NCBI RefSeq assembly: GCF_026151205.1
Contig: NC_087075.1
Location: 804,501 to 868,500 of the forward strand
Direction of reading: 5' to 3'
DNA length: 64,000 nucleotides
Source of the DNA: Bolinopsis microptera
Lineage: Eukaryota; Ctenophora; Tentaculata; Lobata; Bolinopsidae
Below are positions 3,759-55,857 of the stretch, piece by piece. Within the stretch, counting starts at the first letter, position 1. Every line of letters begins with the position of its first letter. A program made the translations under genes and the position numbers. Below the pieces are notes generated by a model that ran no database searches, was not told the DNA's origin, and worked only from the letters and a program-made list of their open reading frames with translations.

Positions 3759-4669
3759 CTGTTACATGCCCCTTACCCCCTTACCAATGCCAAAACTCAC
3801 CTCGCCTTTTGGGAAACATCCCGCGGAACTGATTGCAACAAAATCAAACAAGATTTTCACATTTGCTAAAGAAGAAACAGAGGAGTTGACAGCTGGAAAC
3901 AGTAATATCCAGAAGAAGAGTGTACTGAACAGTACTAATAATATAAGAAGTAGATCTGCAAGTCCTCAGCTGTCCCGACCAGGATCCAGGATGTCCTCAT
4001 TTTATAATGGCTACAGTTCTCCTCTACCTGGCAACCAAGAAATGAGTCTTAGTCTGGATTTGAGACAAAGCCGAGACACTAAATTGGTGCAAGGCCGAGG
4101 TACTGCAGTGGCAAGGTCTGGTAGCCTGAAAAGATCAGGTTCGCTGAGCCGACCAAGATCAGAGTCACCAAGTATTATTAGAACCAACTCCTCCAGAAAT
4201 AGTAAAAACTCTGCAAGGTCTAATTCTCCTAAGCACGACAACTTAACAAGGTCTAATTCTCCTAACTACCAGAGTGACTGCACGGAGGAGAACTGTTTGA
4301 ACCTCTTCCACCAACACAACCTCAACAAGTCCCGCTCTAACTATTCAGACTGGGGTTCCTCCAAGAGCCCGTCTAGTACAACCCATACCAAGAGCATCAC
4401 GTCACGTGATAGTGTGGTGACGACACGTGATAGTGTGGTGACGACACGTGATAGTGTGGTGACGTCACGTGATAGTGTGGTGACGTCACGTGATAGTGAA
4501 GTCGTCTCAAGAACTCCGTCTCCCTCAAAAGACCCGGGGTTTGACAGATTGAGTCAGGCTATCAGAGATATGGATAAGTTTTACAAGGTAGAAGGAGATG
4601 AGGATGTGGTGACAGGGCTAGGAGAGAATGTTAACGTTACTGAACTGGATAAAATCAACATGTTACTAG
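3759..4669 (+). CDS. Ninein exon A: Ser/Arg-rich linker
   Basis: In-frame from the acceptor-like TTAG at 3758 (first ATG 3766) to donor CTAG/GTAGTG at 4669. It encodes a low-complexity, probably disordered stretch with [14 protein letters not shown] and many SR/SP pairs, consistent with a phosphorylated linker. It includes a coding minisatellite at about 4398-4500. It ends after one base of a split codon, completed by the next exon. The upstream boundary is the least certain in the gene. Confidence 0.7.
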
Positions 4670-53100: not shown

Positions 53101-55857
53101 CCTACTTATATAATCTAACCTAACATTGCGACCTACTAATATCATCTAACCTAACATTGCGACCTACTTATATCATCTAACCTAACATTGCGACCTACTA
53201 ATATCATCTAACCTAACATTGCGACCTACTTATATCATCTAACCTAACATTGCGACCTACTAATATCATCTAACCTAACATTGCGACCTACTTATATCAT
53301 CTAACCTAACATTGCGACCTACTTATATCATCTAACCTAACATTGCGACCTACTTATATCATCTATCCTAAGATTGCGACCTACTTATATCATCTAACCT
53401 AACATTGCAACCTACTTATATCATCTAACCTAACATTGCGACCTACTAATATCATCTAACCTAACATTGCGACCTACTAATATCATCTAACCTAACATTG
53501 CGACCTACTTATATCATCTAACCTAACATTGCGACCTACTTATATCATCTAACCTAACATTGCGACCTACTTATATCATCTAACCTAACATTGCGACCTA
53601 CTTATATCATCTAACCTAACATTGCGACCTACTTATATCATCTAACCTAACATTGCGACCTACTTATATCATCTAACCTAACATTGCGACCTACTTATAT
53701 CATCTAACCTAACATTGCGACCTACTTATATCATCTAACCTAACATTGCGACCTACTAATATCATCTAACCTAACATTGCGACCTACTTATATCATCTAA
53801 CCTAACATTGCGACCTACTTATATCATCTAACCTAACATTGCGACCTACTTATATCATCTAACCTAACATTGCGACCTACTTATATAATCTAACCTAACA
53901 TTGCAACCTACTTATATCATCTAACCTAACATTGCGACCTACTTATATCATCTAACCTAACATTGCGACCTACTAATATCATCTAACCTAACATTGCGAC
54001 CTACTTATATCATCTAACCTAACATTGCTACCTACTTATATCATATATCTTAACATTGCTACCCACTTATATCATCTAACCTAACATTGCGACCTACTTA
54101 TATCATCTAACCTAACATTGCGACCTACTTATATCATCTAACCTAACATTGCGACCTACTAATATCATCTAACCTAACATTGTAACCTACTTATATCATC
54201 TAACCTAACATTGCGACCTACTTATATCATCTAACCTAACATTGCGACCTACTAATATCATCTAACCTAACATTGCGACCTACTTATATCATCTAACCTT
54301 ACATTGCGACCTACTAATATCATCTAACCTAACATTGCGACCTACTTATATCATCTAACCTAACATTGCGACCTACTAATATCATCTAACCTAACATTGC
54401 GACCTACTTATATCATCTAACCTAACATTGCGACCTACTTATATCATCTAAACTAACATTGCGACCTACTTATATCATCTAACCTAACATTGCGACCTCT
54501 TGCTCAATCTCATCGTACTCATCTTCGTCTTCGTCCTCTGCAATTATACAATTAGGAGCAATTAACTTATTCTGGTAATAATAAGTAATCTAACTAGGAT
54601 CTAAGAAGTGATCAAGTTGCGCGATGACAAATTTTTATATTGATATTAGACACATAACTGCAATATTTGACAGATTATTATATTTATTATTATATTTATG
54701 ATATTATACACATAACTGCAATATTTAACAGATTATTATATTTATGATATTAGACACATAACTGCAATATTTTACAGATCATTATATTTATGATATTAGA
54801 TTCCTCTTACCGGGATGGTCTGGGTCCACCAGGAAGTCCTGGAGTCCCACTCTGAACTCCTCAAAAGAGACATGTCCGTCCCCGTCATCATCCAGTGTTC
54901 TCATGAGAAGGGGAACTTGTACTGTCGCCTGGATAGTGACGTCATCATTATAACGTGACGTCATCATTATATCTCGGGATAACGTGACGTCAACATTATA
55001 GATCGGTATACCGTGACGTCATGATTATAGATCAGTTTAACGTGACGTCATCATTATAGATCAGTATAACGTGACGTCATCATTATAGATCAGTATAACG
55101 TGACGTCATAATGTGTCATCATTATATCTCGTGAAGGCTCGCACATTTTCACCCAATTAATTTAAAAAAAAGTTTGACCTGATCGGGAGGAACCCCAAGT
55201 TTGCCGAGTAAAGTGACCATCTCGTGGGCGTCAATGTAGCCACTGTCGTCCTCATCACACTGACGAAACAGGTCCCGCAGGTGGGTGTCCTGATCTGAAC
55301 TCTGAGAAGGACGGTGTGTAGTGCATTACACACACACACACGCACACGCACACACGCACACACACACACACACACACACACACACACACACACACACACA
55401 CACACACACACACACACACACACACACACACACACACACACACACACACACACACACACACACACACACACACACACACACACACACACACACACACACA
55501 CACACACACACACACACACACACACACACACACACACACACACACACACACACACACACACACACACACACACACACACACACACACACACACACACACA
55601 CACACACACACACACACACACACACACACACACACACACACACACACACACACACACACACACACACACACACACACACACACACACACACACACACACA
55701 CACACACACACACACACACACACACACACACACACACACACACACACACACACACACACACACACACACACACACACACACACACACACACACACACACA
55801 CACACACACACACACACACACACACACACACACACACACACAAATTTTACTTACCAT
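44100..55857 (-). CDS. Ninein-family N-terminus with two EF-hands (six exons)
   Basis: Minus-strand exons: first exon ending with ATG at 55855-55857, then 55179-55301, 54811-54928, 54497-54537, 44592-44668, 44433-44482 and 44100-44151. The protein starts M, then SSDQDTHLRDLFRQCDEDDS, EF-hand loop DEDDSGYIDAHE, a second EF-hand loop DDDGDGHVSFEE, an acidic stretch, TPKKCYGRSDYEDSDTERSP, and FDGDSEERLVWQMFNE. Vertebrate ninein/NINL also opens with two EF-hands of this spacing, then a basic GKRYGRRS-type segment and VDGEMLEEVFHNLD. The calcium ligands look intact in both loops. The chain then stops; the next ninein region is on the plus strand at 3.76 kb. Phases fit except between 54497-54537 and 44592-44668, where an exon may be missing in the array. 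Confidence 0.7.
44433..44482 (-). CDS. Ninein N-terminal exon 6
   Basis: Acceptor AAACAAG, donor ATTGG/GTGAGT. It encodes AREKKKEPSPDYIDGIG. Phase 0 in, two bases out, completed by the T opening the next exon. Confidence 0.65.
44592..44668 (-). CDS. Ninein N-terminal exon 5
   Basis: Acceptor AAAAACTCAG, donor AACAAG/GTTTAT. It encodes KTPKKCYGRSDYEDSDTERS and PRKNK, basic then Ser/Asp-rich, as in ninein near GKRYGRRS. Its incoming phase does not match the previous exon found. Confidence 0.65.
44713..54496. repeat. 31-bp minisatellite array, about 260 units
   Basis: Units read TATATCATCTAACCTAACAT then TGCGACCTACT on the plus strand. Main variants: TTATATCATC/TAATATCATC, TAATATTATC, TAATATCGTC, CTATCC, GCGACTTAC, GTGACC. 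Marker variants recur at exact multiples of 31 bp, so the array is length-homogeneous and well polished. It is interrupted by a DNA transposon at 49252-50873. It lies in the intron after exon 54497-54537, whose donor (AGAG/GTCGCAATG) is the first unit read on the minus strand. Confidence 0.93.
49252..50873. mobile_element. 1.6-kb DNA transposon with ~10 GTGACTTACATTAC motifs
   Basis: Inserted in the 31-bp array. The ends are GGGCATTTTTTT and its exact inverse AAAAAAATGCCC, flanked by TTAT on both sides (49248-49251 and 50874-50877), a 4-bp target duplication. TGTGACTTACATTAC or a one-base variant occurs near 49264, 49442, 49630, 49650, 50317, 50334, 50347 and 50518, all in the same orientation. 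There is no open frame over 100 codons, so it is non-autonomous. Superfamily unknown. Confidence 0.8.
54497..54537 (-). CDS. Ninein N-terminal exon 4: acidic
   Basis: Acceptor AATTGCAG, donor CAAGAG/GTCGCA (weak). It encodes EDEDEDEYDEIEQE. Two opening bases complete the Glu codon begun by exon 54811-54928. Confidence 0.65.
54538..54810 (-). other. Intron between exons 3 and 4
   Basis: AT-rich. It contains three imperfect copies of a unit with GACACATAACTGCAATATTT and a TTATTATATTTATGATATTA stretch (54640-54800). Confidence 0.6.
54811..54928 (-). CDS. Ninein N-terminal exon 3: second EF-hand
   Basis: Acceptor ACTATCCAG, donor CCCG/GTAAGA. It encodes ATVQVPLLMRTLDDDGDGHV then SFEEFRVGLQDFLVDPDHP. 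The EF loop DDDGDGHVSFEE has acidic or polar ligands at positions 1, 3, 5 and 12. Phase 0 in, 1 out. Confidence 0.85.
54937..55112. repeat. Tandem ~29-bp units with TGACGTCA (CRE-type) sites
   Basis: Six or seven units of AACGTGACGTCATCATTATA plus GATCAGTAT in the intron between the two EF-hand exons. Each carries the palindrome TGACGTCA, the consensus CREB/ATF site. It may be a fortuitous minisatellite or an intronic enhancer. Confidence 0.8.
55179..55301 (-). CDS. Ninein N-terminal exon 2: first EF-hand
   Basis: Acceptor CCTTCTCAG, donor GATCAG/GTCAAA. It encodes SSDQDTHLRDLFRQCDEDDS then GYIDAHEMVTLLGKLGVPPD. The EF loop DEDDSGYIDAHE has the expected Asp/Ser/Glu ligands. 41 codons, phase 0 at both ends, directly after the initiator Met from the exon ending at 55855. 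Confidence 0.85.
55329..55842. repeat. (CA)n dinucleotide microsatellite, ~257 units
   Basis: Uninterrupted CA from about 55357, with a few CGCACA interruptions at the left end. It occupies almost all of intron 1 of the minus-strand ninein part, 12 bp from the start-codon donor. On the transcribed strand it is (TG)n next to both splice sites. Open frames (HTHTHT, VCVCVC) are artefacts. Confidence 0.95.

Follow-up and report, generated by a model that had tools for sequence, protein, structure and literature searches.

Minisatellite units that span predicted exon–intron junctions in genes of the ctenophore Bolinopsis microptera

Results

Gene 1 and the EF-hand gene

We analysed a stretch of 64,000 nucleotides of the Bolinopsis microptera genome (contig NC_087075.1, C4:804501-868500; hereafter the window), which contains a gene designated gene 1 and an EF-hand gene, both with introns that carry tandem repeats. 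The model of gene 1 comprises 16 exons (3766-23236) that form a single 930-aa frame, with GT-AG ends in 15 of the 15 introns. This model is based on the reading frame and on conservation in a second copy of the gene, and its junctions are predicted. A Pfam search with the product returned no family match, and ab initio gene finding was discarded because the coding signal was too weak.

The arrays, detected with Tandem Repeats Finder (TRF), are far above chance expectation and have the head-to-tail organisation and units of about 10–100 bp typical of minisatellites. The original prediction held that the unit of several arrays includes the end of the adjoining exon together with its splice site, and our analysis confirmed this with two corrections. 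Such units were identified at the predicted donors of introns 1, 4, 6 and 15 of gene 1 and of intron 3 of the EF-hand gene, and at the predicted acceptor of intron 5 of gene 1 (Table 1). The duplicated donor of intron 4 was found as described, in two copies. The first correction concerns the acceptors: the unit of the intron 5 array does contain exon sequence, whereas that of the intron 1 array (the TTTGCAG array) contains none. The second concerns the 31-bp minus-strand array of the EF-hand gene, which crosses a donor as proposed, although the junction lies 13 nt further on; the reading frame through five exons of this gene requires TTAG/GTTAGA and not AG/GTCGCA.

TRF reported the intron 6 array as 34 bp x70 at 10941-13313. 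Because a 20-bp duplication interrupts the first copy, the crossing of this junction is invisible to TRF alone and was read from the sequence. Past the donor of intron 15, read-through meets a stop after four codons (by eye), and exon 15 could therefore be the last exon; intron 15 is, like the 21-bp exon 16, no more than a prediction. Introns 2, 3, 10, 13 and 14 of gene 1 also carry arrays, none of which crosses a junction. A further array (21 bp x4.8, 4399-4498) lies within coding exon 1 and corresponds to the repeated peptide RDSVVTT/S; its unit includes ACGTCACGTG, and the words CACGTG or TGACGTCA recur in other arrays.

Table 1. Coordinates of exons and repeat arrays in the window (junctions as predicted)
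Feature	Position	Strand	Description
Exon 1, gene 1	3766..4669	+	final 9 bp (TGTTACTAG) are the beginning of the 28-bp repeat unit
Intron 1 donor-spanning array	4661..6255	+	28 bp x57; unit of 9 bp exon and 19 bp intron; donor GTAGTG
Intron 1 acceptor array	6264..6387	+	32 bp x3.9; stops exactly at the acceptor AG; 0 exon bases in unit
Intron 3 array	7145..9462	+	18 bp x129; stops 1 bp short of the intron end
Intron 4 two-copy donor duplication	9596..9650	+	copies start at 9596 and 9635; period 39
Intron 5 acceptor-spanning array	10690..10780	+	30 bp x3; 9 bp of exon 6 in unit
Intron 6 donor-spanning array	10874..13313	+	34 bp x70; unit of 12 bp exon (AAACTACACAGG) and 22 bp intron; donor GTAAAT
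Intron 10 array	15487..18336	+	21 bp x139; fully intronic, 129 bp from donor and 45 bp from acceptor
Intron 15 donor-spanning array	22450..23195	+	22 bp x34; 16 bp exon plus GTATGT; junction predicted only
Noisy copy of the intron 6 34-bp repeat	24000..42748	+	18.7 kb; not counted as a feature
EF-hand gene intron 3 array	44718..54498	-	31 bp x315; unit of 15 bp exon and 16 bp intron
EF-hand gene exon	54484..54537	-	donor TTAG/GTTAGA starts the 31-bp array

Two copies of each gene with different intron lengths

Gene 1 is present a second time on the same contig, in direct orientation and about 80 kb downstream of the copy in the window (copy A). Exons 2–16 of this copy B match those of copy A at 95–100%, a difference of 5% or less. 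We did not find exon 1 of copy B in the stretch fetched around it; the copy breaks off within the intron 1 array. The EF-hand gene also occurs twice on the contig (within C4:784501-938500), in opposite orientation, with one copy inverted. The A/B pair represents either uncollapsed haplotypes (alleles), a misassembly or a true duplication.

As in variable number tandem repeats (VNTRs), array copy number varies between the two copies of gene 1, in introns 3, 6, 10, 13 and 15. Intron 3 measures 2404 bp in A and 114 bp in B, with 129 versus about 1.5 copies of its unit (B by eye). The corresponding numbers for A and B are 70 versus 125 copies in intron 6, 139 versus 41 in intron 10, 104 versus 3 in intron 13 and 34 versus 7 in intron 15. 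The 26-bp unit of intron 14 is repeated 441 times in B and scarcely extends beyond a single copy in A (by eye). Intron 3 of the EF-hand gene is 9815 bp long in the window, compared with 2836 bp in that gene's other copy.

The donor duplication in intron 4 of copy A was not seen in copy B. At the acceptor of intron 5, copy A has the 30-bp unit in three copies and copy B a different unit of 28 bp in 2.1 copies; since these units are unlike, we read them as two separate events. Together with the differing units among introns, this supports the proposal that the arrays arose independently. Intron 4 of copy B contains an insertion (about 1650-2000 of the fetched stretch) that we take to resemble a tRNA-derived short interspersed element.

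Recurrence of donor words and the same architecture in other genes

For a genome-wide comparison, we searched for 8-letter words that recur at 18–48 bp spacing; pairs were counted genome-wide, and distinct loci were counted by hand among the matches listed, to which all locus numbers below refer. Controls were the reversal TGAATGGA and six words drawn by script beforehand, of which GAGATTAG, ATAGGAGT and TAGTGGAA were counted (not in strict order) and GGTGTAAA, GTAAGAGT and TAAAGGTG were left out. The donor word AGGTAAGT gave 1601 pairs and 12 loci in C1:1-20.56 Mb, and the donor word AGGTATGT gave 2258 pairs and 10 loci in C1:1-17.42 Mb; in each set two loci share one unit. Among the controls, TGAATGGA gave 38 pairs at 19 loci across the whole genome (all 38 pairs examined), GAGATTAG 992 pairs with 2 loci in C1:1-25.46 Mb, ATAGGAGT 150 pairs with 28 loci in 187 Mb, and TAGTGGAA 507 pairs with 18 loci in 86 Mb. 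By distinct loci, the donor words thus exceed the four control words about 3–8 times. Within C1:1-17.42 Mb alone, the donor words are represented by 10 and 10 loci and the controls by 0, 0, 3 and 3.

A 42-fold excess obtained from the reversed-word control alone (1601 versus 38 pairs) was not trusted, because a few large arrays dominate the pair counts and the reversed word is unusually low as a control. AGGTAAGT occurs 10,758 times in the genome and its reversal 7,965 times; other reversed words gave 94, 341, 194 and 492 pairs (pair counts only).

We fetched the upstream flanks of all 12 and 10 donor-word loci. A clear exon precedes the array at 3 of the 12 AGGTAAGT loci, and in each of them homology continues across the junction that bears the array. 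The first is an ADAM gene (Disintegrin, E=3.4e-21), with the junction DCGTEE/EC within the domain. The second encodes the RNA polymerase III subunit RPC1, by similarity with the solved chain 7a6h_A (E=9.2e-49), and has the junction VLDR/RLGAG. The third matches the Img2 family slightly under the family cut-off (E=1.1e-07) and is presumably MRPL49-like. PDB searches with single exon peptides of the RPC1 and MRPL49-like genes gave nothing useful. At 3 of the 10 AGGTATGT loci an open exon terminates exactly at the first donor; one of these exons is weakly CCDC40-like (E=0.005), another weakly HAP1_N-like (E=0.018) and one has no Pfam match. No clear upstream exon was seen at the remaining 16 of the 22 loci, at several of which the word simply repeats itself with a 9–13-bp unit. 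By reading frame, a donor is also spanned by the largest array of the control TGAATGGA; the gene concerned matches VWD weakly and under the cut-off (E=0.014).

RPC1 was followed through one extra 10-kb stretch, which covers much of the gene and was aligned to the solved RPC1 chain. Intron k is nearly all array: a 50-bp unit in six copies, with a shortened first copy at the donor, and a 40-bp unit in 10.7 copies that stops 3 bp before the intron end. In intron c (by eye; positions 983-1330 of the fetched stretch in reversed orientation), exon sequence of the acceptor side is duplicated, and the two copies flank a 16 bp x19 array, with the duplicated exon start beyond its far end.

Placement of arrays relative to splice sites

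We hand-listed 31 arrays from gene 1, the EF-hand gene, RPC1 and the copy-B events of gene 1, and scored as crossing those that cover at least 3 bp beyond a junction. In the null, each array was reduced to one unit and placed randomly over all positions that overlap the shrunken intron. The shrunken introns measure 42–812 bp, many less than 150 bp (lengths approximate), and because they are so short, crossing is expected often. We left out three introns of RPC1: a, to which a donor word had led; c, where a nested array accompanies a duplicated acceptor region; and m, whose junction is unclear. TRF rows that overlapped, units shorter than 9 bp and further rows that were short or of low identity were also excluded.

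Crossing was seen in 7 of the 31 arrays versus 7.61 expected (donors 5 versus 3.81, acceptors 2 versus 3.81). In gene 1 alone the count was 5 of 19 versus 4.98 (P=0.61), and an earlier count from TRF rows alone gave 3 of 18 versus 4.45; adding introns a and c of RPC1 as crossing gives 9 of 33. Array edges follow a different pattern, in categories picked after the data were seen and therefore exploratory. Edges lie at most 20 bp from a splice site in 20 of the 31 arrays versus 12.59 expected (P=0.0015), 0–20 bp inside the intron in 12 versus 6.65 (P=0.016) and at most 3 bp from the site in 6 versus 2.37 (P=0.025). For the 20-bp category, gene 1 alone gave 11 of 19 versus 8.06 (P=0.076), and the EF-hand gene with RPC1 gave 7 of 9 versus 3.96 (P=0.032). 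The proposal that the repeats are seeded at junctions is therefore partly supported: the edges cluster near splice sites, whereas crossing matches random placement.

Variation among the repeated splice sites

Within the arrays of gene 1, we compared the donor nine-mer with the rest of the unit, in changes per position per copy. The rates are 0.028 versus 0.004 in intron 1; 0.018 versus 0.003 (A) and 0.010 versus 0.0003 (B) in intron 6; and 0.077 versus 0.016 (A) and 0.111 versus 0.044 (B) in intron 15. The nine-mer thus varies more than the remainder in five of six rows, these five all from gene 1, although few positions vary and the test is weak. An intact GT is present in 56 of 56, 69 of 69, 123 of 123 and 31 of 33 copies. 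The 30-bp acceptor unit of intron 5 could add 10 aa in an open frame; the 28-bp unit at this position in copy B is out of frame.

Other features of the window and the genome

Tandem repeats make up 1–26% of the sequence in eleven 10-kb samples taken at round-number positions of the genome (264.65 Mb in 232 contigs, with C1–C9 and C13 spanning 16–26 Mb each), and 55% of the 154-kb region around the window (C4:784501-938500) is masked. For the ctenophore Hormiphora, a karyotype of 13, 13% tandem repeats and about 3% heterozygosity are given in the consulted part of the genome report (PMC8527503). In the window, the noisy stretch at 24.0–42.7 kb carries about 8% substitutions and 11% indels, its adjacent chunks are scarcely more similar than far-apart ones, and the homology between the two copies of gene 1 stops just short of it. 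This stretch is probably unpolished sequence or read, or a misjoin.

A long inverted repeat (hairpin) recognised by eye at about 42790-43640 resembles a foldback transposable element. Two 1.1-kb pieces (56627-57722 and 60431-61526) are 99.7% identical and resemble what we take to be a reverse-transcriptase element; a 1085-aa open frame is present at 58145-61402. Outside the window, C6:1998308-2001776 contains two 45-bp arrays (86% and 98% matches) for which minus-strand coding is possible, as a candidate only.

Discussion

We favour the explanation, at a probability of about 0.6, that these arrays arose through local tandem duplication as minisatellites of the ordinary kind, in a genome that produces them in large numbers, concentrated at intron ends and tolerated since the copy nearest the exon splices. 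Local duplication would create minisatellites within short introns and at their edges. A duplicated segment that includes the junction would yield a unit with the exon end and donor, or with the acceptor and exon start. Because the copy beside the exon would keep an intact exon end and splice site, such a duplication would be tolerated; the extra copies would be removed as intron, the coding sequence would stay unchanged, and copy number could afterwards expand and contract freely. The extra copies should be harmless, with tolerance acting as a filter and not as a purpose. The agreement of the crossing counts with random placement is consistent with this account, as are the copy-number differences between gene copies with nearly identical exons, the recurrence of the architecture in unrelated genes and the greater variability of the donor nine-mers in five of six rows.

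We infer that the duplications involve microhomology or slippage and that the extra copies are neutral. Short words shared at the joins were recognised by eye in the MRPL49-like gene (TTAGT) and in the VWD-like gene (AAGAG). In the latter, GT is joined to the exonic AAGAG to give GTAAGAG, apparently a better donor than the GTCTGC that follows the last copy. A pattern in which exon-spanning units end directly after the donor hexamer was dropped because allowing for microhomology shifts the breakpoints of both the ADAM and the VWD-like gene (by eye).

Several points weigh against this explanation. The donor words reach 0.58 and 0.57 loci/Mb among the matches listed, versus 0.07, 0.08, 0.15 and 0.21 for the controls, an excess that plain random birth with tolerance would not predict. 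A filter leaves both this excess and the edge clustering (20 of 31 arrays) unexplained; both would reflect either duplication favoured at junctions, duplication favoured by the letters of the donor or an over-simple null. No microhomology was seen by eye at introns 1 and 6 of gene 1 or at intron 3 of the EF-hand gene. Use of the exon-proximal copy in splicing is itself a prediction, and assembly error could explain part of the copy-number differences between A and B. The 31-bp array also runs opposite to the gene 1 rows, with 0.019 changes in the nine bases versus 0.033 in the rest; because this row used the junction first proposed, it is no evidence on the corrected donor.

The excess of donor words and the edge clustering are what one would anticipate if tandem duplications began more often at splice junctions than elsewhere through a mutational process tied to them, such as breaks at intron ends or structures formed co-transcriptionally, and the donor-spanning nature of the control word's own largest array points the same way. 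We nevertheless consider such a process improbable, as crossing is not above random, a clear upstream exon was seen at only 6 of the 22 donor-word loci and the edge categories were selected after the data were seen. Furthermore, in a 130-kb sample, words with the composition of AGGTAAGT have a mean genome-scaled count of 116 loci (0.44/Mb), a background near the donor-word level, and the average 8-letter word gives 81; we weighted this sample less because 16 of its 32 loci come from one 30-kb stretch. The broader form, in which a lineage-specific process at transcribed junctions makes introns out of exon-end and donor arrays and largely sets intron length, is similarly doubtful.

A comparably unlikely possibility is that donor-like words are inherently prone to expansion through short internal repeats, so that letters and not splicing place the arrays on donors. 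The 16 donor-word loci that lack a clear exon, several of them simple repeats of the word, suggest this. However, the junction-crossing units contain diverse donors (GTAGTG, GTAAAT, GTTAGA, GTATGT), differ in length and mostly have long parts that are not donor-like.

We regard it as very unlikely that the copies are useful, whether as spare splice sites against mutation, as regulatory decoys or as U1-binding arrays. Dozens of intact GT copies per array and the in-frame 10-aa addition at intron 5 would suit such a role, but functional decoys should show conserved splice bases, and the donor bases were not preferentially kept in five of the six rows of that weak test. Between the gene copies, copy numbers are one to two orders of magnitude apart, and none of the donor unit lengths (28, 34, 22 and 31 bp) is divisible by three. 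The copies in gene 1 show no sign of upkeep of donor bases; the original suggestions of buffering against splice-site mutation or of regulated alternative splicing are not supported, and the out-of-frame unit of copy B speaks against a function for the alternative acceptor. Nothing observed suggests the retro-copying that was also proposed, at which no specific test was aimed. Incorrect exon boundaries or misassembly are the least credible source of the architecture: the noise-like 24.0–42.7 kb stretch, the missing exon 1 of copy B, the doubled region with one gene inverted and the predicted intron 15 invite this suspicion, but the models are frame-consistent in two genes and homology extends across the junction in ADAM and RPC1.

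Among known systems, these arrays are close to intronic minisatellites and VNTRs, with which they share head-to-tail units of 9–50 bp, mostly high purity and very variable copy number; they differ in that several units, in genes unrelated to one another, repeatedly hold a splice site together with the end of its exon. Units of about 30 bp are also reported for internal tandem repeats at exon–intron boundaries of human segmental-duplication paralogs, where the repeats alter gene structure between recent copies (PMC2812944, consulted in part). Those variable repeats average 4 copies and are tied to novel introns or exon elongation (PMC2812944), whereas the arrays described here, with up to hundreds of copies, lie in introns that already exist, and the exons have changed little. 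In Drosophila, a model of intron gain or sliding through tandemly duplicated proto-splice sites likewise involves a short duplication with a splice-like site (PMC2891723, consulted in part). Introns 1 and 6 of gene 1 and intron 3 of the EF-hand gene, whose acceptors lie outside the donor array, lack the Rogers-type arrangement, in which two copies of one exonic AGGT segment bound the intron and the second provides the acceptor. In the Drosophila model the duplicated copy reportedly provides the acceptor, unlike introns 1 and 6 and the ADAM, RPC1 and MRPL49-like genes, where the acceptor belongs to separate sequence that the donor array does not include. Introners likewise form introns of repetitive DNA, but the intron 1 unit, the sole unit searched (exact, genome-wide), shows no sign of a dispersed family: all 46 exact matches of its word fall within the two gene copies, at C4 809 kb and 889 kb. 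Literature searches aimed at this architecture and judged by title and start of abstract returned no genome-wide class of splice-junction-spanning minisatellites, and the consulted part of one article (PMC12221973) does not mention tandem repeats or minisatellites.

If these arrays form a common class, they would be a pitfall both for annotating genes and for assembling long reads. They would also provide natural genes with tens of identical consecutive splice sites, in which the choice that the spliceosome makes between equal sites could be tested directly. For the evolution of gene structure, they would offer a way for introns to grow by orders of magnitude from one close copy to another while the protein is little altered.

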